The translations under genes and the position numbers were made by a program. A DNA stretch of 15,568 nt. Origin: a bacterium (lineage in GTDB: Bacteria; SM23-81; DAOVCL01). The notes beneath the pieces were generated by a model. That model made no database searches. It was not told the origin of the DNA and saw only the letters and a program-made list of their open reading frames with translations. Positions 1 through 15,256 of the stretch are shown one piece after another (position 1 is the stretch's first letter; the number at the start of each line of letters is the position of its first letter). The stretch is taken from assembly GCA_029932675.1 (NCBI GenBank), contig JAOZPP010000046.1:7692-23259 (forward strand). The letters are read 5' to 3'.

Positions 1-782
1 GTGGGGCAACAATCTTATACACCGAAGATGGTGGAAGAGGGTGGTATGAGGGAGAGGCGAATTTGCCTCTTTGCTATGGGATACACTTTGTTGATTCACT
101 CAACGGTTGGGCGGTGGGATGTAGTGGGCCTCCTCCCCAACCGCCTCCCTGGTTGAGGCCGATAATCCATACCAGGGATGGAGGTATGACCTGGTTTGAT
201 CAGGAGTTTGATAGTGACACTATATGGGATATCTTCATGGCAGACCTGTATAATGGTTGGGCAACAAAATGCTACCATATCTTTCACACCAGCAACGGAG
301 GTTACACCTGGGAACGCTACGACAATTTTAGTCTCTGGTGTTTGGGAAAGCTTTCCTTCCCGGATCCTGATCATGGCTGGGTTGTGGCTACCTGGGCTTC
401 ATTTCCCGTTGAGTATATGGGGGCGGTCTTCTCCTATCGCCATAGCTCTGGCATAGAGGAGAGGGATTTCAATCATAGAGGGGGCGAGGGTTTTGCTCTC
501 CAGCAAAACTATCCCAATCCGTTTAACTCAAATACAGCTATCAGCTATCAGTTATCAGCTATCAGGCCGCACCGCACCACCCTGAGAATCTATAACGTCT
601 TGGGGCGAGAGGTGAGGACGCTGGTGAATAAACCACAGAAAGGAGGGTACTATAAGGTGATCTGGGATGGGAGGGATAACCGGGGGAAGGAGGTGGGCTC
701 GGGGGTGTATTTCTGTAGGTTAGAGGTGATGGGTGATAGGTTAAAGGAAACAAAGACGAGAAAGCTGATAGTGCTGCGGTAA
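1..782 (+). CDS. Ycf48/BNR-repeat surface protein with T9SS-type C-terminal sorting domain (5' partial)
   Basis: The frame is open from base 3 to the stop at 780-782, so only the C-terminal 259 or so residues are visible. The front half has repeats of the Ycf48/BNR beta-propeller type: pairs of (T/S)xDGGxxW or SNGGYTW with GWAVG/GWATK turns (TEDGGRGW, DSLNGWAVG, TRDGGMTW, LYNGWATK, TSNGGYTW, DHGWVV). The last 95 or so residues form a sorting domain: ALQQNYPNPFNSNTAISYQL, YNVLGREVRTLV, WDGRDNRG, GSGVYFCRLE, ending KTRKLIVLR. In known T9SS bacteria such a domain directs export through the outer membrane and surface attachment or release. A tandem 7-bp repeat encodes the stretch just after the NPFN motif (see findings). 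The next gene begins about 40 bp downstream without an evident terminator, so the two may be co-transcribed. The role of the propeller is unknown; the sorting domain is confident, the ligand is not. Confidence 0.88.
   Translation, partial: GATILYTEDGGRGWYEGEANLPLCYGIHFVDSLNGWAVGCSGPPPQPPPWLRPIIHTRDGGMTWFDQEFDSDTIWDIFMADLYNGWATKCYHIFHTSNGGYTWERYDNFSLWCLGKLSFPDPDHGWVVATWASFPVEYMGAVFSYRHSSGIEERDFNHRGGEGFALQQNYPNPFNSNTAISYQLSAIRPHRTTLRIYNVLGREVRTLVNKPQKGGYYKVIWDGRDNRGKEVGSGVYFCRLEVMGDRLKETKTRKLIVLR
539..566 (+). repeat. Four tandem copies of a 7-bp unit (TATCAGN) inside a coding region
   Basis: TATCAGC, TATCAGT, TATCAGC and TATCAGG follow one another without gaps. The units differ only in their last base. 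In frame they encode part of YQLSAIR in the sorting domain of the preceding partial gene. Because seven is not a multiple of three, gain or loss of one unit shifts the reading frame. Confidence 0.95.
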
Positions 783-810: not shown

Positions 811-818
811 AGAGGTGG
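811..818 (+). promoter_or_regulatory. Ribosome binding site deciding the start of the C25 peptidase
   Basis: AGAGGTGG lies five bases before ATG 824. The alternative GTG at 815 overlaps this site, so ATG 824 is the likelier start. Confidence 0.6.
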
Positions 819-823
819 AAACA

Positions 824-3800
824 ATGTTTCAGGAGATCTTAAAGAAGTTGGCAAAGGCTGGCCTTTTTGCTGTTATATTATCCCTCTTTTGTCTTAACTC
901 GGCAGTGAGTCAAGAGTCCACCCCCCCGCTGCAATATGTGGGGGACAATTACCCGCAAAGCTGGGAGGAGTATCAGGAGACGAAAGACCAAGGTCCCTTT
1001 GTTATCGACGAGGTTCATACCAGCTCGACCCAGAGGCCAAAAGTGCTTTACCTCATAGTCCATTCCTCCATAATCGACTCTCTGGAGAGCACTCTGGACC
1101 AGTTCTATACCGACTTAGAGGAGCAGGGATATTTCCTGCGGGCCTATTCGGTAAGCGGTGGTGAGCCGAGCGACATCAGGTCGCTTTTGCAGACCGGCTA
1201 CTCCTCCGAGGGATTGGAGGGATGCATACTTATGGGACGGAAGCTCCCTGTAGCTTTCTCTGAGATAGCGTGGCGCGACGCCAAAGTTGATAGTGATTAC
1301 CCAATTGATCTATATTATATGGACCTCGATGGTGAATGGATAGATGCAGATGCGGATAACTGGTTCGACGATCACCTTGATGGTTCAGGCGATGTTGAGC
1401 CAGAGATCTACATCGGTAGGCTGGCCATAGAAGATGAACCATACGGCGATAAACGGAAAGAATGGCAGATGATACGGAACTATCTCCAGAGAGATCACAA
1501 GTATCGTATAGGAGAGCTCTCTTCCTTTTATCGAGCACTGGTCTTTATTGACGACAGTTGGCGGGGGCAGGCCAACGACTCCCGGGACGCAGTCCACCAA
1601 GCCTACCCCCAGGCGGTTTTGGTGGTTGACCAGCCCGGGGCACCTGAGTATCATACCACGACTCAGGGTTACCGGGATGAACTCTCCCAAAGCTATGAGT
1701 TCGTCCATGAGATGTCTCACTCCAACTATTATATGCACGCCTTCCAGTCTCCCGAAGACGTGGGTTGCAGTTGGTGTTATAGTCAGGGAAGCGTATATTC
1801 GGATACCATGGCGCTTATCAGAATTGACGGTAATGATCCTGACCATCCACCGGCCTTCTGTCTAAATAGCATTGCCAACGGTGCTGGTCCCCAGGCGATA
1901 TTCTATAACCTCATCTCCTGCACCGCCGGCAACTTTATGGCAAAGGATTATGGATGTTACTATTTGGCCGGACATTATATATTCCGTCTGAATGAGAATA
2001 GCTGCGGCTTGGGAGCTATAGCCAGCACCAAAATAGGGGGTATGGGTAATTATAATTCTCATTGTGAAGATTTTTATGAAGCTTTTGCCAACGGGATGTG
2101 CATTGGCGAGGCCTTCTTAAAATGGTTTGTCAGACGAGGGGAGGCTTCACGCGAGTGGCATTATGGGCTCACTTACTTTGGAGATCCAACCCTACACCAA
2201 TGTGGATATGTGTATCAGGACTACTCTTTAACCGGTTTTCCCGTCAACCTGAACGGCCCGGTTTCATCTTCCCCTGTTTTGGTTGATCTGGACGGCGATG
2301 GAAAGAGGGAGGTAATTGTGGGCTCAGGAAGTGATAGTCTTTATGTATTGGGCGCTACTGGACAAACGATATGGACCAAGGGGTTGGACGGTGGTGTGAG
2401 AACCTGCCCAGCCATAGGAGATTTAAATGGCGATGGTGATTTGGAGATAGTAATTACGAACTCACCTTCGGGTTGCGGAAAGCTCTGGGTTCTTAATGCC
2501 AATGACGGGACCAACTTTGGGAACTTCCCCTTAATAATGGGGGATTACCTAAATCTGCCTCCTGCTTTAGGAGATCTGGATGGTGACGGCCAGTTGGAAA
2601 TTGTTATAGCAGCAAATTACTTATTCATTGATCCACACGAGGTTAAAGAGACTTTAAAGGTTATTAAACCCAATGGTTCATCTCTTTGGAGCCGCTATTC
2701 AGAGGTTTCGGCTCCTCCTTCTGGGATAGCATTGGGCGATTTGAATGAGGATGTCCTTCCAGATGTGATCGTTACGGCCGACGACTCTGTTATTGCACTT
2801 GAAGGCATGACAGGAGGTCGACTATGGAGCTCCTTTTTGCAAGGGCCCTTCGGTGCTGTAGCGCTGGCCGATTTAGACAGGGACGGAGATTTGGAGGTGG
2901 TTGTTGGCTCCAGCGATGAAATATTTGTTTTAGAAGGGGGTGAGGGAGGGGTCTTGTGGACACATCCCACTAATGGAATGGTAACTGGCATAGCAATAGG
3001 TGACATAGACGCAGATAGTGATTTGGAGATCGTGGCCGGGTCCCAAGGGGGGACACTCTATGTCTTGGATAACAGTGGATCTGAGAAGTTAACCTACCCA
3101 ATTGAGGCTCCAATCTTTTCTTCCCCAGCTTTAGGAGATATTGATGAGGATGAGGAAACAGAGATCGTAGTGAGCACTTTTAGGGGTACATATGTCCTGA
3201 ACCCTGATGGAAGCAATGTTTTGCCAGGATTCTTTTTGGGTGGAAAATCGTACTCCTCGGTGGCGATCGGTGATATTAATGACGACGAGAATACCGAAGC
3301 TGCGGTGGACGGTATGGATGGTCAAATTCATGTCTATGATTTCTGGGGAAACCCCGATCATACCGAATGGGGCATGTATCAGCATGACAGGTGGCATACG
3401 GGGCTATATGGAGCTGTGCCTACCAGAGGGGCTAGTGGTCATATCACCGAAAACACTACCTGGTCAGAAAGAATTGTTGTCCTCGGCGATGTCACAGTGG
3501 ATAGTGGGGTGGTATTAACGGTTCAACCAAGCACAGAAGTGCTATTTATGCCAAATCAGGACAACGAGAAGTCAGGAGTAGATACTTCCCGGTGTGAGCT
3601 CATTGTGCAGGGGGAGCTGGTTGCCTCCGGTGCAGGTGCAGACTCCGTGGTTTTCAGTTCTCCGGTTAGTGGAGGTTGGTATGGGGTAAGGTTCAAGCCG
3701 GAGGGCCAGGGCCATATCCAAGGAGCTATAGTGAAGAACGGATACTGTGGGGTCTTTCTGGACACCTCCAGTGTGGTGACCATAGAGGAAAGCAGCATCA

Positions 3801-4825
3801 GGGATAATCAGCTTTGTGGCATTAGGTGCGATCACACGGACTCAGCCACGGCCATCTCTGACAACACCATCTCTGGGAACAATCTCTATGGGGTCTACGC
3901 CGAGGGTTGCTCTCCTTCTATAATCGGGAATAGCTTTCCCTATCCCAATCAGGATTATGCTATCAGGATAGTTGGGGATTCCCCTGATAAGCCAGTGGTC
4001 ATCAGAAGCAACAATATCCTTATGCCTGTTCTGGAGTGTAACCCACCACGAGGAGGAGGAGATAGCACCGGTGTGGGGATATATATCGAGGATGCCACAG
4101 CCCAGATTGAGGATAACCAGATAATTGGTGGCCATTACGGCATAATAGGGGTAGGTCTTGATTCGGCTACCGTGATCAAAGGGAGCGAGGAATTGAGTCA
4201 AGAGTTGGATAGAAACTGTATAGGGTTGGCTCTCTATGCAGGCTCCAGGCCCATAGTCTCCAGCAATCAGATTAGCGATTATGGAGACATAGGTGTGGCC
4301 TGCTACCAGAGCTGCCCTCTATTAGGTGATTCCCTCATCCCGGGAACGGGCAACAACAGCATCACCCCAGGCTCCTGTTCTCCTCAATATGCGGTATACT
4401 GTGAGGGGGTAACCGATACGATAAAGGCGGAGATGAACTTCTGGGGTGGGTCACCGCCTGATCCCGCCTGGTTCTATGGGCCGGTGGACTATGACCCTTG
4501 GCTTACCTCAGTAGGGGTGGAACCAACTACTAAGCCATCTCTGCCAGATCACTTCTCCCTCTCCCAGAACTACCCCAATCCAATCAATTCAGTCACACAG
4601 ATCAAGTATGCTCTACCAGAAGGTTACCAGGTGAGTTTGAAGGTGTATAACATCCTTGGGCAGTTGGTGAGAACTCTGGTCGATGAGGGTAAACCCACTG
4701 GTTATTACTCAATAGCCTGGGATGGGAGAACTGATTCTGGGGAAGAGGTGGCCAGTGGGGTTTACATCTACCGGATAAGGGCTGGTGGCTATACCAGCAG
4801 CAAGAAGCTGGTAGTTTTACGCTAA
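824..4825 (+). CDS. Gingipain-like C25 family cysteine peptidase with FG-GAP repeats, beta-helix and T9SS sorting domain
   Basis: Predicted secreted protein of 1333 residues. I chose ATG 824 over the in-frame GTG 815 because AGAGGTGG (811-818) sits five bases before it. Residues 1-29 are a signal peptide (KKLAK, then a hydrophobic core, cut near AVS/Q). Residues 70-465 match the C25 caspase-like fold: VLYLIVH, then YPIDLYYMDLDGEWID, then EPEIYIGRL. A His (H295 or H299 in FVHEMSHS) and C366 in ISCTAGNF fit the family's catalytic dyad. Eight calcium-loop repeats of FG-GAP type start near residues 488, 533, 584, 639, 683, 727, 772 and 817 (DLDGDGKREV and similar). Residues 875-1215 look like a right-handed parallel beta-helix. 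Residues 1244-1333 are a sorting domain (SLSQNYPNPINS, YNILGQLVRTLVDEG, WDGR, SGVYIYRI). The substrate is unknown. The GHG usual at the His is replaced, so activity is inferred only. Confidence 0.88.
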   Translation: MFQEILKKLAKAGLFAVILSLFCLNSAVSQESTPPLQYVGDNYPQSWEEYQETKDQGPFVIDEVHTSSTQRPKVLYLIVHSSIIDSLESTLDQFYTDLEEQGYFLRAYSVSGGEPSDIRSLLQTGYSSEGLEGCILMGRKLPVAFSEIAWRDAKVDSDYPIDLYYMDLDGEWIDADADNWFDDHLDGSGDVEPEIYIGRLAIEDEPYGDKRKEWQMIRNYLQRDHKYRIGELSSFYRALVFIDDSWRGQANDSRDAVHQAYPQAVLVVDQPGAPEYHTTTQGYRDELSQSYEFVHEMSHSNYYMHAFQSPEDVGCSWCYSQGSVYSDTMALIRIDGNDPDHPPAFCLNSIANGAGPQAIFYNLISCTAGNFMAKDYGCYYLAGHYIFRLNENSCGLGAIASTKIGGMGNYNSHCEDFYEAFANGMCIGEAFLKWFVRRGEASREWHYGLTYFGDPTLHQCGYVYQDYSLTGFPVNLNGPVSSSPVLVDLDGDGKREVIVGSGSDSLYVLGATGQTIWTKGLDGGVRTCPAIGDLNGDGDLEIVITNSPSGCGKLWVLNANDGTNFGNFPLIMGDYLNLPPALGDLDGDGQLEIVIAANYLFIDPHEVKETLKVIKPNGSSLWSRYSEVSAPPSGIALGDLNEDVLPDVIVTADDSVIALEGMTGGRLWSSFLQGPFGAVALADLDRDGDLEVVVGSSDEIFVLEGGEGGVLWTHPTNGMVTGIAIGDIDADSDLEIVAGSQGGTLYVLDNSGSEKLTYPIEAPIFSSPALGDIDEDEETEIVVSTFRGTYVLNPDGSNVLPGFFLGGKSYSSVAIGDINDDENTEAAVDGMDGQIHVYDFWGNPDHTEWGMYQHDRWHTGLYGAVPTRGASGHITENTTWSERIVVLGDVTVDSGVVLTVQPSTEVLFMPNQDNEKSGVDTSRCELIVQGELVASGAGADSVVFSSPVSGGWYGVRFKPEGQGHIQGAIVKNGYCGVFLDTSSVVTIEESSIRDNQLCGIRCDHTDSATAISDNTISGNNLYGVYAEGCSPSIIGNSFPYPNQDYAIRIVGDSPDKPVVIRSNNILMPVLECNPPRGGGDSTGVGIYIEDATAQIEDNQIIGGHYGIIGVGLDSATVIKGSEELSQELDRNCIGLALYAGSRPIVSSNQISDYGDIGVACYQSCPLLGDSLIPGTGNNSITPGSCSPQYAVYCEGVTDTIKAEMNFWGGSPPDPAWFYGPVDYDPWLTSVGVEPTTKPSLPDHFSLSQNYPNPINSVTQIKYALPEGYQVSLKVYNILGQLVRTLVDEGKPTGYYSIAWDGRTDSGEEVASGVYIYRIRAGGYTSSKKLVVLR

Positions 4826-4841
4826 AGTGGAAACCTTTAGC
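4821..4841 (+). terminator. Hairpin over the stop codon of the C25 peptidase gene, without a U-tract
   Basis: GCTAAAG (4821-4827) and CTTTAGC (4835-4841) are perfectly complementary around a 7-base loop. The stem contains the TAA stop at 4823-4825. No run of T follows, so it is not a canonical intrinsic terminator. It may protect the 3' end of the mRNA or act as a weak terminator. Confidence 0.35.
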
Positions 4842-4847
4842 CAGAAA

Positions 4848-4875
4848 TTGAGGATATTGTGAAGAGGATTATACT
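4848..4875 (+). promoter_or_regulatory. Candidate sigma70-type promoter for the ribosomal cluster
   Basis: TTGAGG (4848-4853) and TATACT (4870-4875; five of six matches to TATAAT) are separated by 16 bases. Transcription would start near 4882, giving a leader of about 200 bases before rplE. A promoter is needed here because the usual upstream ribosomal genes are missing. The match is by eye and unproven. Confidence 0.3.
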
Positions 4876-5059
4876 TTTAACCATATTAGCCTTTACTATA
4901 GCTATGCCGCTTAAAGGGGCACAGTTGGAGATACCGGTTAAAACAGTCTGCCTCATATCGCCATCTGGTTCTTCCCAGGCAGGTATCTTCTCAAGGTTAA
5001 TCTGCCATAGGAGGTTAATTCTTGGGGTTTGTGAAAGGAACATTTTACCTACAAGGTAA
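4859..5059 (+). pseudogene. 66-codon ORF with signal-peptide-like start; possible remnant of a secreted-protein gene
   Basis: A GTG start leads into MKRIILLTILAFTIAMPLKG, which has the basic end, hydrophobic core and small residues of a signal peptide. The remaining residues up to ILPTR resemble no family I know, and the stop TAA overlaps an ATG at 5059. No good Shine-Dalgarno site precedes the GTG. It could be the 5' scrap of a secreted-protein gene left by the rearrangement that placed these genes next to rplE, a real short secreted peptide, or chance translation of the rplE leader, since the candidate promoter overlaps it. Confidence 0.25.
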
Positions 5060-5085
5060 TGGGGTATGGAAACCAAAGTGAGCCA

Positions 5086-5625
5086 ATGGCCAGGTTGAGG
5101 GAATATTATCAGAAGGAGGTCGTTCCCCTCCTCAGCAAAAAGTTTGGCTACAAGAACCCCTTGGAGGCGCCTAAGCTGGAGAAGATCGTGATAAATATGG
5201 GGGTGGGGGACGCTATCCAAAACCCAAAACTTTTAGACGCTGCTGTCGATGATCTAACTTTGATCGCCGGACAGAGACCAGTGATCACCAGGGCAAAGAA
5301 GTCCATCTCTAACTTCAGGCTGAGGGCGGGGATGGCTATCGGCTGTAAGGTGACCCTACGCGGGGAGAGGATGTACGAGTTCTGGGATAGGCTGGTGAAT
5401 GTGGCCATACCTCGGATAAGGGACTTTCGCGGTGTGCCCACAAAATCCTTCGATGGAAGGGGAAATTATACCTTGGGGATAAGGGAACAGGTTATATTTC
5501 CGGAGATCAACTATGACAAAGTGGAGAAGCTGCGGGGTATGGATATCACCATCACCACTACCGCCAAAACGGATGAAGAGGCCTTGGAGCTTCTGGCGGC
5601 TATGGGTATGCCATTTAAGAGGTAG
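5086..5625 (+). CDS. rplE: 50S ribosomal protein L5
   Basis: Part of the central protuberance of the large subunit, binding 5S rRNA together with L18. The 179-residue product starting at ATG 5086 ([16 protein letters not shown]) has the family's usual length and start. An in-frame ATG at 5059 would add nine residues (MGYGNQSEP) not typical of L5, so 5086 is preferred although its Shine-Dalgarno signal is weak. Hallmarks are [14 protein letters not shown], the [17 protein letters not shown] segment, [23 protein letters not shown] and a C-terminal [15 protein letters not shown]. In most bacteria rplN and rplX lie directly upstream; here the upstream neighbours are secreted-protein genes, so L5 opens the cluster. 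rpsZ follows after 12 bases. Confidence 0.98.
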
Positions 5626-5637
5626 AAAGGAGAGGGT

Positions 5638-5823
5638 TTGGCGAAAAAGTCCTTAAAGATAAAGGCAAGTAAGGAACCGAAGTTCAAAGTGAGAAGATAT
5701 AACAGGTGCCCCCGTTGTGGCCGTCCCCGCGCCTACATGCGAAAGTTTGGCCTCTGCAGAATATGCTTCCGGGAACTGGCTCTACGGGGAGAAATTCCAG
5801 GTGTGGCCAAGGCCAGTTGGTAG
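5638..5823 (+). CDS. rpsZ: 30S ribosomal protein S14, zinc-binding type Z
   Basis: Small-subunit head protein of 61 residues. It is the short form with a zinc ribbon: C24, C27, C40 and C43 (CPRC and CRIC). The start is TTG at 5638, with AGGAGAG a few bases upstream, and the TTG gives the expected MAKKS start. It ends [10 protein letters not shown], as the family does. It sits in its canonical place between rplE and rpsH. The 12-bp and similar short gaps suggest translational coupling. No zinc-independent S14 copy is visible in the window. Confidence 0.97.
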
Positions 5824-5835
5824 GGGGGTAAATCG

Positions 5836-6234
5836 ATGACTATGACAGATCCCATCGCAGATATGTTGACCAGAATCAGAAATGGTCTGCAAGCCAGATT
5901 GCCTGTGGTAGAAGTTCCCTCCTCAAAGATTAAGAAGAAGCTGGCCGAGATTCTCTTAAAGGAGAAATATATAGCCGATTATAAATTATCCGAGGAGGGA
6001 AGTCACAAAAAACTAAGGATTTATCTAAAATATACCCCAGATGGACGCCCGGTAATATCCGGCCTAAAGAGGGTGAGCAAGCCAGGGTTGAGGGTTTATG
6101 TGGGGAAGGATAAGATCCCTCGGGTGCAGAATGGTTTGGGCACAGCAATTCTCTCCACATCCAAAGGGATTTTGCAGGATAAACTATGCAGGAAGGAAGG
6201 AGTTGGAGGGGAGGTCTTGTGTTACATATGGTAG
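5836..6234 (+). CDS. rpsH: 30S ribosomal protein S8
   Basis: Primary 16S rRNA-binding protein of the small-subunit platform, 132 residues. ATG 5836 follows a GGGGGG purine tract. The N-terminus [15 protein letters not shown] and the C-terminus [17 protein letters not shown] and [11 protein letters not shown] are the two conserved blocks of the family. In Escherichia coli S8 represses its own operon by binding a site around the L5 gene; I did not identify such a site here, so feedback is only an inference. It ends 9 bases before rplF. Confidence 0.98.
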
Positions 6235-6243
6235 GAGATAGAG

Positions 6244-6807
6244 ATGTCTCGGGTAGGTAAAGCCCCTATACCCCTTCCCCAGGGGGTAGAGGTGAAGGTA
6301 GAGGGGGATAGGTTACGGGTAAAGGGACCGTTGGGGACCTTAGAGAGGGAGATCCATACCGGCCTGCGGGTGGAGGAAAGAGAAGGGAAACTATTTATTT
6401 TACGTCCTTCAGATGATCGGTTCTATAGATCTCTACATGGACTGACCAGGACCCTGGTGGCCAATATGGTGGAAGGGGTATCGAAGGGATTTAAAAAGGT
6501 TTTAGAGATAATTGGGGTGGGCTATAAGGCCGAGCTCATCGGGAGGAAGCTCAACTTTCAGTTAGGTTATTGCCATCCCATTCTTTTTGAACCCCCGGAG
6601 GGGATCAGCTTTGAGGTGGAGATGATGGCCAGGGCTGGTCGGGGGGACGTAGTGGAAAGAATTACCGTCAAGGGGATAGATAAGGAATTGGTGGGTCAAG
6701 TTGCCGCCAAGCTAAGGTCACTACAGCCACCTGATCCCTATAAAGGCAAGGGTATCAGGTATCATGGAGAGAAGGTGCGGCGGAAGGCTGGCAAGACAGC
6801 AGCTTAA
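6244..6807 (+). CDS. rplF: 50S ribosomal protein L6
   Basis: Large-subunit protein near the sarcin-ricin loop and factor-binding site. The product has 187 residues, starting [17 protein letters not shown], with [11 protein letters not shown] in the first domain and the signature [23 protein letters not shown] near the end, quoted here in part. It is slightly longer than the usual 177-180 residues. The extra residues appear to lie in the segment [15 protein letters not shown], where most homologues have a shorter turn before the VKGxDKxxVGQVAA block. Spacing to rplR is five bases. Confidence 0.98.
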
Positions 6808-6812
6808 AGGCT

Positions 6813-7193
6813 ATGGGTATCGTAGATAAGAATAAAACGAAAATCCTTTCCTGGAAGAGGAGGAAAAGGAGAATAAGGGAAAAGGTCTTTGGTACCCCAC
6901 AACGTCCTCGATTGAGCGTTCACCGTAGCCTCCGCCAGATTTATGCGCAGGTAATTGATGACCAGGCTCAGAGGACCATCCTTTCCCTTTCTACCCTTTC
7001 CCCAGAATTATCCTCAGCACTGGGGGAACTGTCGGGGAAGGCAGCTAAGGCTAAGCACCTGGGTAAGGTCTTGGCTGAAAAACTGAAGGAGAAAGGGGTA
7101 GAGAAGGTGGTTTTTGATCGGGGAGGTTATAAATATCACGGAAGGGTTAAAGCTCTTGCTGAGGGTGCCAGGGAAGGGGGACTGAGATTTTAG
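6813..7193 (+). CDS. rplR: 50S ribosomal protein L18
   Basis: Binds 5S rRNA in the central protuberance with L5. The product has 126 residues. The basic N-terminus ([13 protein letters not shown]), [20 protein letters not shown], the middle [21 protein letters not shown] and the ending [26 protein letters not shown] are family hallmarks. ATG 6813 lies just after the rplF stop with AAAGG upstream. rpsE follows after 14 bases. Confidence 0.98.
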
Positions 7194-7207
7194 AAAGGAA
7201 GGAAAAC

Positions 7208-7714
7208 TTGAAGGGGAAAAGGGAAGAGGAAGGGGGCATTGAACTTGAGGAGAAGCTCATCTACTTAAATCGGGTAGCAAAGGTAGTTAAGGGAGGGAGA
7301 AGGTTTGGTTTTAATGCCCTAGTGGCGGTAGGAGATGGCAATGGAAGCGTGGGGGTAGGTTTGGGAAAGGCCAATGAGGTATCCGCTGCCATTAGGAAGG
7401 CTACTGAGGCTGCTCGCAAGACAATGATTAAAATCCCTCTTCTGCGGGGGACCATACCCCATGAGATCTTGGGCAAATTTGGGGCGGGAAGGGTGCTTAT
7501 GAAACCGGCTAGTCCGGGGACTGGGGTGATAGCTGGTGGGCCGGTGAGGGCGGTGATGGAGGTGGCTGGTGTAGAAAACGTGTTAACTAAATCCTTGGGT
7601 TCATCTAACCCTCATAATGTGGTCAAGGCAACCATGAATGGTCTGTTACGGTTGAGGGATGCCCGGATGGTGGCCAATCTGAGAGGGATGGAGATTAAGG
7701 AGCTCCTCTCCTAA
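7208..7714 (+). CDS. rpsE: 30S ribosomal protein S5
   Basis: Small-subunit protein at the mRNA entry site, involved in decoding accuracy. The product has 168 residues from TTG 7208, with AGGAAGG upstream. Hallmarks are [19 protein letters not shown], the [11 protein letters not shown] loop, [14 protein letters not shown], and [16 protein letters not shown] short acidic N-terminal tail ([11 protein letters not shown]) precedes the conserved core. The 73-base gap that follows is the longest inside the ribosomal cluster and contains a palindrome. Confidence 0.98.
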
Positions 7715-7730
7715 TCTTAGGATAATCCAT

Positions 7731-7743
7731 TAAATCGGATTTA
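7731..7743. promoter_or_regulatory. 13-bp palindrome in the rpsE-rpmD gap
   Basis: TAAATC, one G, then GATTTA form a perfect inverted repeat. It lies in an AT-rich 73-base gap within an otherwise tightly packed operon. The one-base loop makes an RNA hairpin unlikely, so a protein-binding site or chance are the main options. A weak TTTATT / AATTAT promoter-like pair lies in the same gap. Confidence 0.25.
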
Positions 7744-7787
7744 TTAATCGTTTACACCATAGGAATTATTCAGACCGAGGAGATTAG

Positions 7788-7985
7788 ATGGCCAAAAGGT
7801 TGAAGATAACTCAGAGAAAGAGCGCAATAGGCTATCCGCGTAGACAGAAACTTACCATTGAGGCCTTGGGGATAAAGAGACTGAACCGATCAGTGGTGCA
7901 CCAGGACACCCCTCAGATAAGGGGTATGGTGAGGAAGGTAATCCATTTGGTGGAAGTTGAGGAATTAGAGGATGATGCAGATTAG
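7788..7985 (+). CDS. rpmD: 50S ribosomal protein L30
   Basis: Small large-subunit protein of 65 residues, slightly longer than the usual 58-60. Core pattern KITQRKSAIGYPRRQKLTIEALG, LNRSVVHQDTPQIRGMVRKV and HLVEVEE matches L30; an acidic tail ends the protein (ELEDDAD). ATG 7788 is preceded by GAGGAG. Its last 14 bases overlap the start of rplO, so the two are probably translationally coupled. Confidence 0.96.
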   Translation: MAKRLKITQRKSAIGYPRRQKLTIEALGIKRLNRSVVHQDTPQIRGMVRKVIHLVEVEELEDDAD

Positions 7986-8430
7986 ACCACCTTCTGGGTC
8001 AAGAAAGAAGAGAAAAAGGGTGGGAAGGGGCCCGGGCTCTGGCCTGGGGAAAACCTCCGGTCGGGGAGAGAAGGGGCAGAAATCAAGATCTGGTTCAAAG
8101 TCAAAGGCCTGGTTTGAGGGAGGCCAGATGCCCTTGAGTAGAAGGGTGCCCAAAAGGGGAATGAAGAGGGGAAAGAAATCAGTGATGATGCGCCACTTTC
8201 GCCCTTCTTACCAGATAGTCAACCTCAAGCAATTGCAGAGGTATGGTGATCCTCAGGTCATTGATCCGCCTCGACTGAAGAGGGATGGTCTGATAAAGAG
8301 TTTAGATCTTCCCTTGAAGGTGTTAGGGGAAGGTCAACTGGAATGCGCTCTCACCATCAAGGCTCAGGCCTTTAGTAAATCGGCGAGGACAAAGATTGAA
8401 GCCAGTGGGGGGAAGGTGGAGGTGATCTAA
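7972..8430 (+). CDS. rplO: 50S ribosomal protein L15
   Basis: Large-subunit assembly protein, 152 residues. The N-terminal glycine- and arginine-rich tail is characteristic: RPPSGSRKKRKRVGRGPGSG, then LGKTSGRGEKGQKSRSG, then FEGGQMPLSRRVPKRG. The C-terminal domain ends with the short conserved SKSARTKIEASGGKVEVI. ATG 7972 with GAGGAA seven bases upstream is favoured over ATG 7975. Both lie inside the end of rpmD. The stop is directly followed by the TTG start of secY. Confidence 0.97.
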   Translation: MMQIRPPSGSRKKRKRVGRGPGSGLGKTSGRGEKGQKSRSGSKSKAWFEGGQMPLSRRVPKRGMKRGKKSVMMRHFRPSYQIVNLKQLQRYGDPQVIDPPRLKRDGLIKSLDLPLKVLGEGQLECALTIKAQAFSKSARTKIEASGGKVEVI

Positions 8431-9738
8431 TTGTTTCAGACATTTCAAAACACCTTTAAGATCCCTGAGCTGAGGAGGAGGATACTCTTCACCATAGGTC
8501 TCCTTGTCGTTTACCGAATAGGTTGTCATATCCCCATTCCGGGTATAGATATGAGCGTTTTGAAGGGCTTCTTTGCCCAGGCTCAAGGGACCCTCTTCGG
8601 CCTCTACGACATATTTGCTGGGGGGGCATTCAAGAACGCTGCCGTCTTTGGCTTGGGAATAATGCCCTATATCACCTCCTCCATCATTATGCAGCTTTTA
8701 GGGGCAGTTGTCCCTTATTTTCAGAAGTTACACAAGGAGGGAGAGGAGGGAAGAAGGAAGATAACCCAGTATACCCGATATGGAACGGTTCTCATCTGCA
8801 TTCTTCAATCCTATGGGGTGAGTATATTCTTAGAGAGCCTCCAATGGGGAGGGGCTTCGCCGGTTGTTCATCCCGGGATAGGGTTTAGGCTTTTAACTAT
8901 GTTGACGATGACCACAGGGACCATCTTTCTGATGTGGATTGGGGAGCAGATGACCGAGAAGGGGGTGGGCAATGGGATTTCCCTCATCATCTATGTGGGG
9001 ATTCTGGCCCGGTTTCCCGGGTCTGTCTTAAACGAGGGAAGACAGTTAGCTGCTGGCACCCGCACGCCATTTCAGGGTTTTATGATTTTGGCCATTATTG
9101 TGGCCGTCACCGCTTCAGTTGTCCTCATTACCCAGGCTCAGCGGAGGGTGCCAGTGCAATACGCCAAGAGGGTGGTAGGAAGAAGGATCTACGGCGGGCA
9201 ATCCACCCATATCCCCTTAAATATGAATGCTGCTGGGGTCATCCCAATTATCTTTGCCCAGTCCCTGATGTTTGCCCCTCGGACGATAACTACTTTCTTC
9301 CCGAAAAGCGAGCTCTTAAAGGGTATAGCTAATTGGTTTACCCCTGGGGCGTTGGTCTATTCGGTAGTCTATGCTCTTTTGATCATATTCTTTGCCTATT
9401 TTTATACAGCTATCGTCTTTAACCCTGTTGAGTTGGCCGATAATATGAAGAGATACGGTGGTTTCATTCCTGGGGTGAGGCCAGGGAAGAAGACAGCGGA
9501 CTACATAGACAGGATACTTACCCGCCTCACCCTCCCCGGTGCCCTTTTCTTTGCCTGCATCGCTATCTTACCTTGGTTCCTGATGAGATCGATGGATGTT
9601 TCCTTTTACTTTGGGGGAACCTCTATCCTGATCATTGTCGGGGTGGCCTTGGATACCATGAAGCAGGTGGAATCCCATCTGGTGATGAGGCATTATGAGG
9701 GGTTTATGAAGAGGGGGAGGATAAAGGGGAGGAGATGA
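8431..9738 (+). CDS. secY: Protein translocase channel subunit SecY
   Basis: Central pore of the Sec translocon in the inner membrane, 435 residues and about ten membrane segments. The start is TTG 8431, directly after the rplO stop, with GGAGGTGA ending seven bases upstream. Recognisable blocks in order are PIPGID, FALG-like GLGIMPYITSSIIMQLL (segment 2), GEQMTEKGVGNGISLII (segment 4), PLNMNAAGVIPIIFAQSL, NPVELADNMKRYGGFIPG with RPGKKTADYI (the C5 loop region), and the C-terminal tail KQVESHLVMRHYEGF. It would be needed for signal-peptide export of the T9SS substrates upstream, though that is general to the cell. The stop overlaps the adk start as ATGA. Confidence 0.99.
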   Translation: MFQTFQNTFKIPELRRRILFTIGLLVVYRIGCHIPIPGIDMSVLKGFFAQAQGTLFGLYDIFAGGAFKNAAVFGLGIMPYITSSIIMQLLGAVVPYFQKLHKEGEEGRRKITQYTRYGTVLICILQSYGVSIFLESLQWGGASPVVHPGIGFRLLTMLTMTTGTIFLMWIGEQMTEKGVGNGISLIIYVGILARFPGSVLNEGRQLAAGTRTPFQGFMILAIIVAVTASVVLITQAQRRVPVQYAKRVVGRRIYGGQSTHIPLNMNAAGVIPIIFAQSLMFAPRTITTFFPKSELLKGIANWFTPGALVYSVVYALLIIFFAYFYTAIVFNPVELADNMKRYGGFIPGVRPGKKTADYIDRILTRLTLPGALFFACIAILPWFLMRSMDVSFYFGGTSILIIVGVALDTMKQVESHLVMRHYEGFMKRGRIKGRR

Positions 9739-10400
9739 GGTTAGTGATTTTGGGACCCCCAGGGGTAGGGAAGGGGGTAGAGGCAGAAATGCTTAGCCAG
9801 AGGTTACGGATACCGCATATCTCTACAGGGGAGATATTGAGATCCTCAGTGGAGGAGGGTACCCCATGGGGGGAAAGGGCAAGGAGCTTTTGGGAGAAGG
9901 GTGAGTTAGTTCCCGATGAGATTATGATGGAGTTGGTTAGGTTTAGGCTGGCTGAACCGGATTGTGAGAGGGGCTTTATCTTGGACGGGTTCCCGCGCAC
10001 CCTTTCTCAAGCCCAGGGGTTGGATGCCATAGGCAAGGAGAATGGTTGGACCCTCGATGGGGTCATTAATATGGGTGCCTCAGAGGAGACCATTCTGCTT
10101 AGGCTTTCTAACCGGAGGGTCTGTTCAGTTTGTGGAGCGGTCTATAACCTAATCACTTCGCCTCCCCAGGTGGAAGGTATCTGTGATCGATGTGGGGGTA
10201 AGCTCTATCAGAGGGAGGATGATCAACCTCAGACTATAAAGAAGAGGCTTTCCATATACTTTAGGGAGATAAAGGGGTTAGAGGAGTATTATCGAAATAG
10301 GGGGATCTTAGTGGATGTTCAGGGAAACGGGGAAGTAGAGAAGGTTTACGAGGAAATAGTGGAAAAACTTACCCCAAAGTTTGAGGCCAAGTATGGCTAA
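9735..10400 (+). CDS. adk: Adenylate kinase, zinc-LID type
   Basis: Balances AMP, ADP and ATP in the cytoplasm. The product has 221 residues and overlaps secY by four bases (ATGA). The P-loop is [14 protein letters not shown] (residues 7-20); K13 is kept but the usual Thr at position 15 is Val. Other hallmarks are HISTGEILR (AMP site; usually TGDMLR), [17 protein letters not shown] and the LID. The LID holds C130, C133, C150 and C153 (CSVC and CDRC), a structural zinc site found in many adenylate kinases. [14 protein letters not shown] follows, then YYRNRGIL. Length and order of motifs are those of a long-form enzyme. The change in the P-loop is unusual, so activity should be checked. map, which often comes next, is absent. 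Confidence 0.97.
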
Positions 10401-10611
10401 ACAGGAGACGATAAAAGTGGACGGGGTTGTGATTGAGCCCCTCCCCAATGCCACGTTTAGGGTTGAGTTGAAGAACGGTCACCAGGTTTTGGCACACATC
10501 TGTGGGAAGATGAGGATGCACTACATAAAGATTCTTCCTGGAGATAGGGTTGCCGTTGAACTCTCACCTTACGATTTAACCCGGGGAAGAATAACCTATA
10601 GGTACAAATGA
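10393..10611 (+). CDS. infA: Translation initiation factor IF-1
   Basis: Binds the A site of the small subunit during initiation. ATG 10393 gives the usual 72-residue OB-fold protein ([71 protein letters not shown]). An upstream in-frame TTG at 10381 would add four residues, but GAGG six bases before the ATG favours ATG 10393. The gene overlaps adk by eight bases and its stop overlaps the rpmJ start as ATGA. Confidence 0.98.
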
Positions 10612-10742
10612 AAGTTAGAGTTTCCATAAAACCCATCTGCGAACACTGTAAGGTGATCAGGAGAAGAGGGGTGCTCAGAGTCATTTGCTCTAACCCCCGT
10701 CACAAACAGAGGCAGAAGGGCAAACCAAAAAGGGTGGGCTGA
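10608..10742 (+). CDS. rpmJ: 50S ribosomal protein L36, zinc type with short C-terminal extension
   Basis: The smallest large-subunit protein, 44 residues, in its standard place between infA and rps[21 protein letters not shown] and the downstream NPRHKQRQ are diagnostic. The zinc ligands C11, C14, C27 and H32 are all present. Usual L36 proteins end at about residue 37-38 (RHKQRQG); here seven more residues (GKPKRVG or so) follow, basic in character. The start overlaps the infA stop by four bases. Confidence 0.95.
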
Positions 10743-10757
10743 AAAGGAGGCTTAAGG

Positions 10758-11132
10758 TTGGCCAGAATAGCAGGTGTTGATCTGCCGAAAGGGAAGAGGT
10801 TAGAGATCGCTCTTACCTACATTTATGGCATTGGCCGCTCCTCTGCAAACGAGATATTAAAGAAGACAGGGATCTCACCGGATATTAGGGTGGAGAAACT
10901 TAGCGAGGAAGAGGTCTCTAAGCTGAGGTCTGTTATAGAGTCGGACTATAAGGTCGAGGGGAGTAAAAGGGCAGAGGTGGCGATGAACATTAAGAGGTTG
11001 ATGGATATAGGCTCCTATCGCGGCCTCCGGCACAGGAGGAACCTTCCGGTGAGGGGGCAGAGGACGAGGACCAACGCTCGCACAAAGAGGGGTTCCCGCA
11101 GGACTATTGGTGCGAAGAGGAAGAAAAAATAG
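10758..11132 (+). CDS. rpsM: 30S ribosomal protein S13
   Basis: Small-subunit head protein contacting the P-site tRNA and bridging to L5. The product has 124 residues. TTG 10758 follows AAGGAGG by seven bases and gives the expected [20 protein letters not shown] start. [32 protein letters not shown] and the C-terminal [15 protein letters not shown] are family hallmarks, and the tail is basic (GAKRKKK). Confidence 0.98.
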
Positions 11133-11144
11133 GAGGTATGGGAT

Positions 11145-11537
11145 TTGGCAGATAAGAGATCTAGGGGGAGGTCAAAGAAGAAGGGGAGGGTAGAGGCGAA
11201 GGGGGTTGCGCACATTCAGGCAACTTTTAACAACACGATAATCACTATTACTGATATCCAAGGAAGGGTCGTCTCCTGGGCCTCAGCAGGGAGAGTTGGT
11301 TTTAAAGGTTCAAAGAAGAGCACTCCGTTTGCCGCCGGACAAGCAGCTACCACCTCGGCTAAGGAAGCAATGGATAGGGGGATGAAGAGTGTGGAGGTGA
11401 GGGTTAAGGGCCCGGGCTCAGGGAGGGAGGCAGCCATAAGATCCCTCCAGGCCGCAGGGTTAAATATCACTGCCATTAGAGATGTGACCCCTATTCCCCA
11501 TAATGGTTGTCGTCCTCCAAAGCGAAGGAGGGTATAA
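11145..11537 (+). CDS. rpsK: 30S ribosomal protein S11
   Basis: Platform protein next to the mRNA exit, 130 residues. TTG 11145 lies eight bases after AGGAGG (11131-11136), which overlaps the rpsM stop; an ATG at 11138 is out of frame. Hallmarks are [52 protein letters not shown] and [18 protein letters not shown]. The spacing and Shine-Dalgarno placement tie it to rpsM. Confidence 0.98.
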
Positions 11538-11540
11538 GGG

Positions 11541-12170
11541 ATGGCCAGGTATACAGGACCAGTTTGTAGGCTTTGTAGAAGGGAGGGGGCTAAGCTTTTT
11601 TTGAAGGGTGATCGGTGCTATACCGATAAGTGTAGTTTGGAGAGGAAGGAAAGGCTTCCTGGGGAGCATGGAGAGGTGCCTCGACGGAGGATGTCCGAAT
11701 ATGGGCTCCAGTTGAGGGAAAAGCAGAAGGCGCGTAGGATATATGGGATAATGGAGAAGCAGTTTAGGAACTACTTCGAAAAGGCGGAGAGGAAGAAGGG
11801 GATAACTGGTGAAAACCTTCTGCGTGCCTTAGAGTGTCGCTTAGACAACGTCGTCTACCGGCTCGGCTTCGCCCCTTCTCGCAGGGCAGCAAGGCAGTTG
11901 GTGAGGCATGGCCACTTTCAAGTCAATGGGAGGAAGGTGAACATTCCCTCCTATCAGGTGAAGCCTAAGGATGTGGTGAAGGTGAGGGAAAAGAGCAGGA
12001 ATCTGGGCGTAATACATGAGTCATTGAGGGCTGCGGAGAGGATGGGTAGGGTTAGTTGGCTCAGGGTGGATAAGGCCAAGCTGGAGGGTGAGGTCTTAGA
12101 TTATCCCACAAGGGACCAAATACCGGAAGCCATCACGGAGAAGCTTATTGTGGAGCTCTATTCTAAGTAA
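11541..12170 (+). CDS. rpsD: 30S ribosomal protein S4, zinc-binding (C+) form
   Basis: Primary 16S rRNA-binding assembly protein, 209 residues. The N-terminus [16 protein letters not shown] with C9, C12, C26 and C31 is the zinc-holding version; others lack these cysteines. The S4 RNA-binding domain follows, with [40 protein letters not shown] and [16 protein letters not shown]. The C-terminal motif is VELYSK. ATG 11541 lies eight bases after GGAGGG. In E. coli S4 is the repressor of the alpha operon; no target pseudoknot was recognised here. Confidence 0.98.
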
Positions 12171-12186
12171 GGAGGAATACTTTTAG

Positions 12187-13176
12187 ATGAAGTGGATCAG
12201 CCTTCAACTTCCCAAGGGATTAGAGGTGGAAGAAGAGTCTATGACAGAGGAGTATGGTAAGTTCGTTATCGAGCCATTAGAGAGGGGTTTTGCGGTGACC
12301 TTGGGAAATTCCCTTCGCCGTATTCTCCTCTCCTCCTTGCAAGGGGCGGCCATAACCGCCTTGAGGCTGGAGGGGGTTTCCCATGAGTTCTCCACTATCC
12401 CTGGGGTAGTAGAGGATGTGCCAGAAATAGTGCTTAACCTGAAGGAGGTGAGGATAAAATTCTTGGCTGATAAACCAGTAGTGGTGCCGATTGAGAAGTC
12501 AGGGCAAGGAGAATTCCGCGCCGGCGATATCGATGGCGGAGGGAATTTTCTTATCCTTAACCCTGATCATCATTTGGCTACTTTGAGTGATGGGGCCAAG
12601 ATTAAAGGGGAGATAGAGGTCGGTTTTGGCCGTGGTTATGTTACCGCTGAACGGAACAGGAAGCCCAACCATCCATTCGGCACTATCTGCCTTGATTCCA
12701 TCTTCACCCCGGTGACCAAGGTCAACTATCAGGTGGACAGCACTAGGGTGGGACATAGGGTGGACTTCGAGAAGCTTACCCTGCAAATTTGGACAGATGG
12801 GAGTATTACCCCAGGGGAGGCTTTAAGCTATGCTGCACAGATCTTAAAGCAACATGTGGAACTTTTCATCACTCATCCCGCCCACTTCGAGGAGGTCAAG
12901 GAGAGTAAGGTGGACAAGGAGGTGCTGCGGATAAGGAACCTCCTGAAGACAAGGGTTGATGAATTGGAACTCTCCGTGCGGTCGAGCAACTGCCTGCGGG
13001 CAGCTAATATAGTTACCCTGAAGGATTTGGTGCAGAAGACGGAATCCCAAATGCTTAAATACAGAAACTTTGGCCGTAAATCCCTTTCTGAACTGCAAAG
13101 GGTTTTAGCAGAATTCGGTCTCTCCTTCGGTATGGATGTAACTCCATATATGGAGGGCGAGGAGGAGGAGCATTGA
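12187..13176 (+). CDS. rpoA: DNA-directed RNA polymerase alpha subunit
   Basis: Dimer scaffold of RNA polymerase, 329 residues. The N-terminal domain (about 1-230) has GFAVTLGNSLRRILLSSLQG, GVSHEFSTIPGVVEDV, GRGYVTAERN and PVTKVNYQVDSTRVG. The C-terminal domain (about 250-320), which contacts UP elements and activators, keeps the VRSSNCLRAANI helix with the DNA-contacting Arg, and the KYRNFGRKSLSELQ motif. A short acidic tail ends the protein. The start is ATG 12187; the AAGGAGG upstream overlaps the rpsD stop and is about 11 bases away. The TGA stop overlaps the TTG of rplQ. Confidence 0.99.
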   Translation: MKWISLQLPKGLEVEEESMTEEYGKFVIEPLERGFAVTLGNSLRRILLSSLQGAAITALRLEGVSHEFSTIPGVVEDVPEIVLNLKEVRIKFLADKPVVVPIEKSGQGEFRAGDIDGGGNFLILNPDHHLATLSDGAKIKGEIEVGFGRGYVTAERNRKPNHPFGTICLDSIFTPVTKVNYQVDSTRVGHRVDFEKLTLQIWTDGSITPGEALSYAAQILKQHVELFITHPAHFEEVKESKVDKEVLRIRNLLKTRVDELELSVRSSNCLRAANIVTLKDLVQKTESQMLKYRNFGRKSLSELQRVLAEFGLSFGMDVTPYMEGEEEEH

Positions 13177-13574
13177 GACACCGCAAGAAGGGCAGAGCTC
13201 TGGGCAGAAACCCTGCCCATCGGATGGCCACCTTGAGAAATCTGGTTTCCAATCTTTTCCTCTGTGAGAGCATCACCACTACCGATGCCAGAGCTAAAGA
13301 GGCCCAGAGGCTTGCCGAGAAGCTGATCAACTTGGGTAAGAGGGGTGATTTACATTCCCGGCGGATAGCTTTAAGGTTGCTTCCTCGTAAGCCAGTTGTA
13401 GCCAAATTATTTGATGACATTGCCCTCAGGTGTGCGGAGAGGAATGGAGGTTATACCCGCAGGGTTAAGCTAGGGCCTCGTTCAGGAGATGGGGCATCAT
13501 TAACTCTTCTCCAGTTGGTGAAGGAGAGGGGGGAGGGGGCAGAGAAGCCGGCCGGCAAAGGGGAGGAAGAATGA
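13173..13574 (+). CDS. rplQ: 50S ribosomal protein L17
   Basis: Large-subunit protein near the exit tunnel, 133 residues. TTG 13173 overlaps the rpoA stop, preceded by GGAGGAGGAG. The start MRHRKKGRALGRNPAHRMAT, LRNLVSNLFLCESITTTDAR, AKEAQRLAEKLINLGKRGD and GGYTRRVKLGPRSGDGASL are typical. The last 20 residues or so are a charged linker (KERGEGAEKPAGKGEEE). Its stop overlaps the next small gene as ATGA. Confidence 0.98.
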   Translation: MRHRKKGRALGRNPAHRMATLRNLVSNLFLCESITTTDARAKEAQRLAEKLINLGKRGDLHSRRIALRLLPRKPVVAKLFDDIALRCAERNGGYTRRVKLGPRSGDGASLTLLQLVKERGEGAEKPAGKGEEE

Positions 13575-14044: not shown

Positions 14045-15256
14045 ATGAATATAGAGGTAATCCAGGAAAGATGTGTGGGGTGTGGGGTCTGTGTAGAGGC
14101 TTGCCCCTATGGGGCGATCAAAATAGTTGAGGACCTGGCAGTCATCGATGAGAGCTGCACCCTTTGTGGTGCCTGTGTCGACCCATGTAAGTTCGATGCC
14201 ATCCTAATCAGAGGTCGGAAAGAGGTGCCTAACAGGAGGAACTACTCCGGAATCTGGATCTTTGCCGAGCAGAGGAATGGAAAGTTGCATCCGGTAAGTT
14301 TTGAACTCCTTGGCGTGGGCAGAAGGCTTGCTCAAGCTAAGGGTTGTGAGCTCTCTGCGGTTCTGCTTGGCTTAGAGATAAGGGATAAAGCGGAGGATTT
14401 AATCGCGAGGGGAGCAGATAGGGTATATCTGGTTGAATCCGCTCAATTAAAGGATTTTCTGGTTGAGAGCTATACCCAGGCTTTGGTTGAGCTCATCCAG
14501 GAATACCGCCCGGAGATATTCCTCAGTGGGGCGACCTCCTTAGGTAGGTCCCTTATTCCCAGGGTGGCCACCAAGTTGCGGACTGGGCTGACCGCCGACT
14601 GCACTGGGCTGGAGATTGATCCAGAGAGCGGCCTGCTTCTCCAGACCCGTCCCGCTTTTGGAGGAAACATTATGGCCACCATCGTTTGTCCCCACCATCG
14701 TCCCCAGATGGCCACCGTGAGGCCAAAGGTGATGAAAGAAGCGGCGGTTGACCAGAAGAGAAAAGGGGAGGTCATCTTAAAGGAGATCGGTTCGGATAGG
14801 CTTCCCTCCCGTACCAAGTTGCTGAAGGTGGTGAGGGAAGAGGGGGAGATGGTGAACATAGCCGAGGCCGATGTAATCGTCTCCGGAGGTAGGGGATTGG
14901 GTGACCCTTCAAAGTTTGTCTTAATAGAGGAGCTGGCCAAAACCTTAGGGGGTGCTGTAGGGGCTTCCCGGGCGGCAGTGGATGCCGGTTGGATCCCTTA
15001 CTCTCATCAGGTTGGTCAAACCGGGAAGACCGTCTGCCCTCAGCTCTACATCGCTTGCGGCATATCTGGAGCCATTCAGCATCTGGTAGGGATGCAATCG
15101 GCAAAGGTAATTGTAGCCATAAACAAGGACCCAGAGGCCCCTATCTTCAAAGTGGCCACCTATGGGATAGTGGGTGACCTCTTCGAGGTGATTCCCGCCC
15201 TGATAAAGAGGATAAAGAGCACCGGCCAAGCCACCCCGGAGATTGGAGGGGGATGA
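14045..15256 (+). CDS. etfA: Electron transfer flavoprotein alpha subunit with N-terminal two-cluster ferredoxin domain
   Basis: Predicted cytoplasmic flavoprotein of 403 residues. Residues 1-60 are a ferredoxin with two CxxCxxCxxxC motifs for [4Fe-4S] clusters (C10, C13, C16, C20; C38, C41, C44, C48). Residues 65-250 are the EtfA N-terminal domain (GIWIFAEQRNG, then FLSGATSLGRSLIPRVATKL, TGLTADCTGL, RPAFGGNIMATI). Residues 275-400 bind FAD: VSGGRGLGDPSKF, GAVGASRAAVDAGWIPYSHQ, VGQTGKTVCPQLYIACGISG, AINKDPEAPIF and YGIVGDLFEVIPAL. This fused form is known from electron-bifurcating Etf complexes of anaerobes such as the caffeyl-CoA reductase and lactate dehydrogenase partners. A beta subunit (etfB) usually lies directly upstream, but none is in the window, so its electron donor and acceptor are unknown. 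Confidence 0.95.
   Translation: MNIEVIQERCVGCGVCVEACPYGAIKIVEDLAVIDESCTLCGACVDPCKFDAILIRGRKEVPNRRNYSGIWIFAEQRNGKLHPVSFELLGVGRRLAQAKGCELSAVLLGLEIRDKAEDLIARGADRVYLVESAQLKDFLVESYTQALVELIQEYRPEIFLSGATSLGRSLIPRVATKLRTGLTADCTGLEIDPESGLLLQTRPAFGGNIMATIVCPHHRPQMATVRPKVMKEAAVDQKRKGEVILKEIGSDRLPSRTKLLKVVREEGEMVNIAEADVIVSGGRGLGDPSKFVLIEELAKTLGGAVGASRAAVDAGWIPYSHQVGQTGKTVCPQLYIACGISGAIQHLVGMQSAKVIVAINKDPEAPIFKVATYGIVGDLFEVIPALIKRIKSTGQATPEIGGG

Follow-up and report, generated by a model that had tools for sequence, protein, structure and literature searches.

The stretch of DNA analysed here (the window, 15,568 nt; C23:7692-23259) ends together with the 23,259-base scaffold C23, which belongs to a draft genome of 3.03 Mb in 116 contigs that is 97% complete and 0.24% contaminated. 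From position 5086 onward, the window carries the canonical row rplE, rpsZ, rpsH, rplF, rplR, rpsE, rpmD, rplO, secY, adk, infA, rpsM, rpsK, rpsD, rpoA and rplQ on the plus strand, as the first-pass annotation had read it. rplE, encoding L5 (window 5086..5625, with its ATG at C23:12777), was assigned by Pfam (PF00281/PF00673), while rpsZ to rplQ (window 5638..13574), which make up the rest of the spc operon and the alpha half, were read from ORF translations. Downstream of rplQ, window 14045-15256 encodes an electron transfer flavoprotein alpha subunit with an N-terminal ferredoxin domain. An Rfam scan of the window returned 0 families.

The same annotation had described rplN and rplX as missing upstream of rplE, which a search of the same genome did not confirm. 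The L14 family search found one match, at C23:5269-5634 on the plus strand, which together with the translation identifies rplN (C23:5269-5637); rplX follows on the same strand (C23:5634-5945), with Pfam matches to ribosomal_L24 and KOW. Both genes lie 1.7-2.4 kb ahead of the window start, on the scaffold and strand of rplE, and they complete an S10 half that is intact and in canonical order within C23:1-9000 (rpsJ, rplC, rplD, rplW, rplB, rpsS, rplV, rpsC, rplP, rpmC, rpsQ, rplN and rplX; genes named from translations, with rplX backed by Pfam). rplN and rplE are each present in one copy in the genome. As rplN and rplX are found upstream in order and orientation on the same scaffold, their loss or relocation was rejected. 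The sole N run of C23 consists of 100 N at 7592-7691, the conventional length of a scaffold gap, and the first base of the window comes directly after it; the apparent absence of rplN and rplX is thus explained by a window that starts right behind a scaffold gap.

Secreted-protein genes between rplX and rplE

The rplX stop (C23:5945) and the rplE start (C23:12777, window 5086) are separated by 6,831 scaffold positions, including the 100 N, and all genes in this interval are co-oriented with the operon on the plus strand. The first of these (C23:6079-7443), characterized by Pfam and ORF reading, encodes a 454-aa YCF48/BNR-repeat protein with a FlgD_ig or sorting-type C-terminus. It is followed in tandem by a second YCF48/BNR-type secreted gene (C23:7487-8473), which is interrupted by the scaffold gap, with its 5' part at C23:7487-7591 and its 3' part at window 1..782. 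The two copies are ~90% identical overall (about 86-94% by segment). Their spacing is 1390 ahead of the gap and 1027 behind it, which, if the copies are collinear, would indicate a real gap near 460 nt and an insert of about 7.2 kb; the tandem copy number could be larger than two.

The next gene (window 815..4825, C23:8506-12516) encodes a predicted secreted protein of 1336 aa with Peptidase_C25, FG-GAP repeat and right-handed beta-helix matches and a FlgD_ig/Por_Secre_tail C-terminal sorting domain. Like Por_Secre_tail or FlgD-like secreted proteins and the C25 family, it has Pfam matches over the cut-off, but its match to C25 (PF01364, residues 119-460, E 9e-7) is weak, at 28.8 bits against a cut-off of 23, and its secretion route and activity are putative. 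A search for a solved C25 structure matching this protein by sequence found none. By its profile match, the protein falls within C25 (the gingipain family) and can be considered a putative peptidase. The right end of the insert (window 4826..5085, 260 nt) contains a 66-aa ORF (4859-5059) with a signal-peptide-like start and no Pfam family match, which may be what is left of a gene for a secreted protein. The gingipain-like protein and the short ORF that had been placed just upstream of rplE are therefore both found at this locus.

Promoter-like and terminator-like sites across the insert occur at or near shuffle levels, and a new promoter driving the second half of the cluster, as had been proposed, gains no support from promoter-like sites that are no commoner than in shuffled sequence. 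A candidate conserved leader ahead of the first gene of the insert (ACATAAGGCCTTAAGTTTGA) was also rejected: two genomes contain it at just 3 places, and at the other two the downstream sequence does not clearly match a gene of this type.

Comparison with a congener and other bacteria

The one congeneric genome compared, G001, shows ~77-84% nucleotide identity along the ribosomal cluster. In this genome, the rplX stop TAA and the rplE ATG are 1 nt apart. The alignment of G001 to C23 extends up to 5941 and restarts at 12777, with collinearity on both sides, on the right through rpsZ to rplQ, so that synteny is lost within a few bases of the end of rplX and picks up precisely at the rplE ATG. 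Searches of G001 found no ortholog of the inserted genes. It had been considered that close relatives might show rplX directly before rplE, with these secreted-protein genes elsewhere; the former is the case in G001, and no orthologous genes were found elsewhere in that genome. The ribosomal flanks are hence collinear with those of G001, as would be expected of a gene insertion. The idea that a rearrangement split the S10-spc block is retained in so far as a rearrangement at the rplX-rplE step is supported; it would be an insertion into a cluster that stays on one scaffold, with rplN-rplX not moved away.

In 58 of the 59 genomes examined, L14 and L5 are 306-779 nt apart; in the genome that contains the window, the distance is 7,211 nt. 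Spacing is also normal in two further members of the phylum. A further 77 loci, mostly from Bacillota, show distances of 333-484 nt; these were obtained from a contig scan with rplE and serve as spacing controls, with no recognisable phylum member among them. Taking into consideration that rplX and rplE are 1 nt apart in G001 and that no orthologs of the insert genes were found in G001, the insertion appears to be derived in the lineage of this species, and, as far as the genomes compared (with one congener) can tell, it would date after the split from G001.

Origin of the insert and contiguity of the scaffold

Paralogs of the inserted proteins occur elsewhere in the genome, with 70, 64, 57 and 51% identity over long stretches, and their FlgD-like or Por-type C-terminal domain has some 160 matches genome-wide, reflecting a large repertoire of secreted proteins. 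The G+C content of the insert (0.491) is close to that of its flanks (0.503 and 0.500). Since paralogs are common in the genome and G+C is flat, the insert seems to be of native type and contamination is an unlikely source. An assembly or binning chimera, in which foreign sequence was joined to ribosomal contigs, might be suspected in a draft genome of 116 contigs, but two erroneous joins would be needed, one at the rplX stop and one at the rplE start, where the sequence is ungapped in both cases, and composition, paralogs and the low contamination of a nearly complete genome all speak against it; we give this explanation a very slim chance.

The scaffold gap raises a different question. The flanks from rplX to rplE and the insert are on one scaffold and strand, but the 100 N fall inside the insert, within the second of the two tandem copies. 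Similar tandem sequence is a common place for assembler breaks. The S10 and spc halves could therefore be two loci lying apart in the genome, both with secreted-protein genes at their border, that were wrongly scaffolded via the similar tandem genes, and both the position of the gap in a repeated gene and the abundance of the shared C-terminal domain in the genome are compatible with such an error. Against this, the gene fragments flanking the gap complement each other, and other genomic matches to the interrupted gene reach no more than about 66% identity, confined to the C-terminal domain; because the genome has no other close copy, the two orphan gene ends fit each other. Moreover, the genes on the two sides of the join follow each other in the ancestral order, and we regard separate loci as quite improbable. 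Contiguity from rplX to rplE relies on scaffolding and synteny rather than on a single gap-free contig. The concern about a contig mis-join, which had also been voiced in the first-pass annotation, is weakened by the ungapped gene junctions and persists with regard to the gap inside the insert.

No second genomic copy of the right junction (window 4820-5090) was found, and the earlier observation of neither repeat nor transposase at the junction is correct for the rplE side and with regard to transposases. It does not hold for the rplX side, where a dispersed palindromic repeat, AGACATAAATGTCTGTCCCTAC, is located at C23:6021-6042, in the stretch that separates rplX from the first gene of the insert. 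Allowing up to 3 mismatches, this repeat has 34 copies in the genome of the window and 27 in G001 (control, 0); it is often preceded by a second palindrome, e.g., GGGACAGGGCTTTAGCCCTGTCC, and is dispersed in both genomes. A different dispersed repeat of ~150 nt is found between rplE and rpsZ of G001 (L004:8299-8454), with 42 matches in G001 and 5 in the genome of the window, suggesting that insertions into the ribosomal cluster occur in this genus. Transposon-borne insertion was considered and not adopted: inspection of the ORF lists revealed no transposase ORF in the insert, a repeat search found no terminal inverted repeats and no target-site duplication was recognised at its ends, leaving only the dispersed palindrome close to the left end.

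Very probably, this locus results from a recent insertion, specific to this lineage, that placed ~6.8-7.2 kb of native secreted-protein genes behind the rplX stop and ahead of the rplE start. According to this explanation, an ordinary S10-spc-alpha cluster would have received a co-oriented block of secreted-protein genes after the split from the sister genome. The block may have arisen by duplication or relocation of native secreted-protein genes, and dispersed repeats could have aided its arrival. As all genes keep the direction of transcription, rplE and the genes that follow are probably transcribed by read-through and/or from a promoter within the insert. The close rplX-rplE junction of the sister type would have been lost, together with any translational coupling that depended on it. 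That the insertion is adaptive, with the secreted-protein genes retained since co-transcription couples their output to growth rate and with control of the second half of spc rewired, seems hardly probable.

Relation to known rearrangements of ribosomal gene clusters

Between rplX and rplE, which are 1 nt apart in the sister genome, ~7 kb of unrelated genes can evidently be accommodated with no ribosomal gene lost from the row. The locus also calls for caution with genes that seem to be missing at the edge of a window, as this can reflect a scaffold gap. Beyond these points, it represents one lineage-specific rearrangement.

In the secE-to-alpha cluster of Gammaproteobacteria and Bacilli, 115 rearrangements have been described, in a classification that includes gene insertions, and 75 of the 115 disrupt the joins between operons and leave the operons intact (PMC8046335). 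Known insertions include tusDCB between rpoBC and str, bfd-bfr between str and S10, and nrdHEF between rplL and rsmC; the mechanism was left unsettled in that study, with duplication, transposons or transfer being proposed (PMC8046335). As in those cases, a few unrelated genes have entered a conserved cluster of which the remaining order is kept. Unlike the majority of them, the present insertion is located within the spc operon, between rplX and rplE, and consists of secreted-protein genes. The rearrangement is therefore unusual, but of an already known sort.
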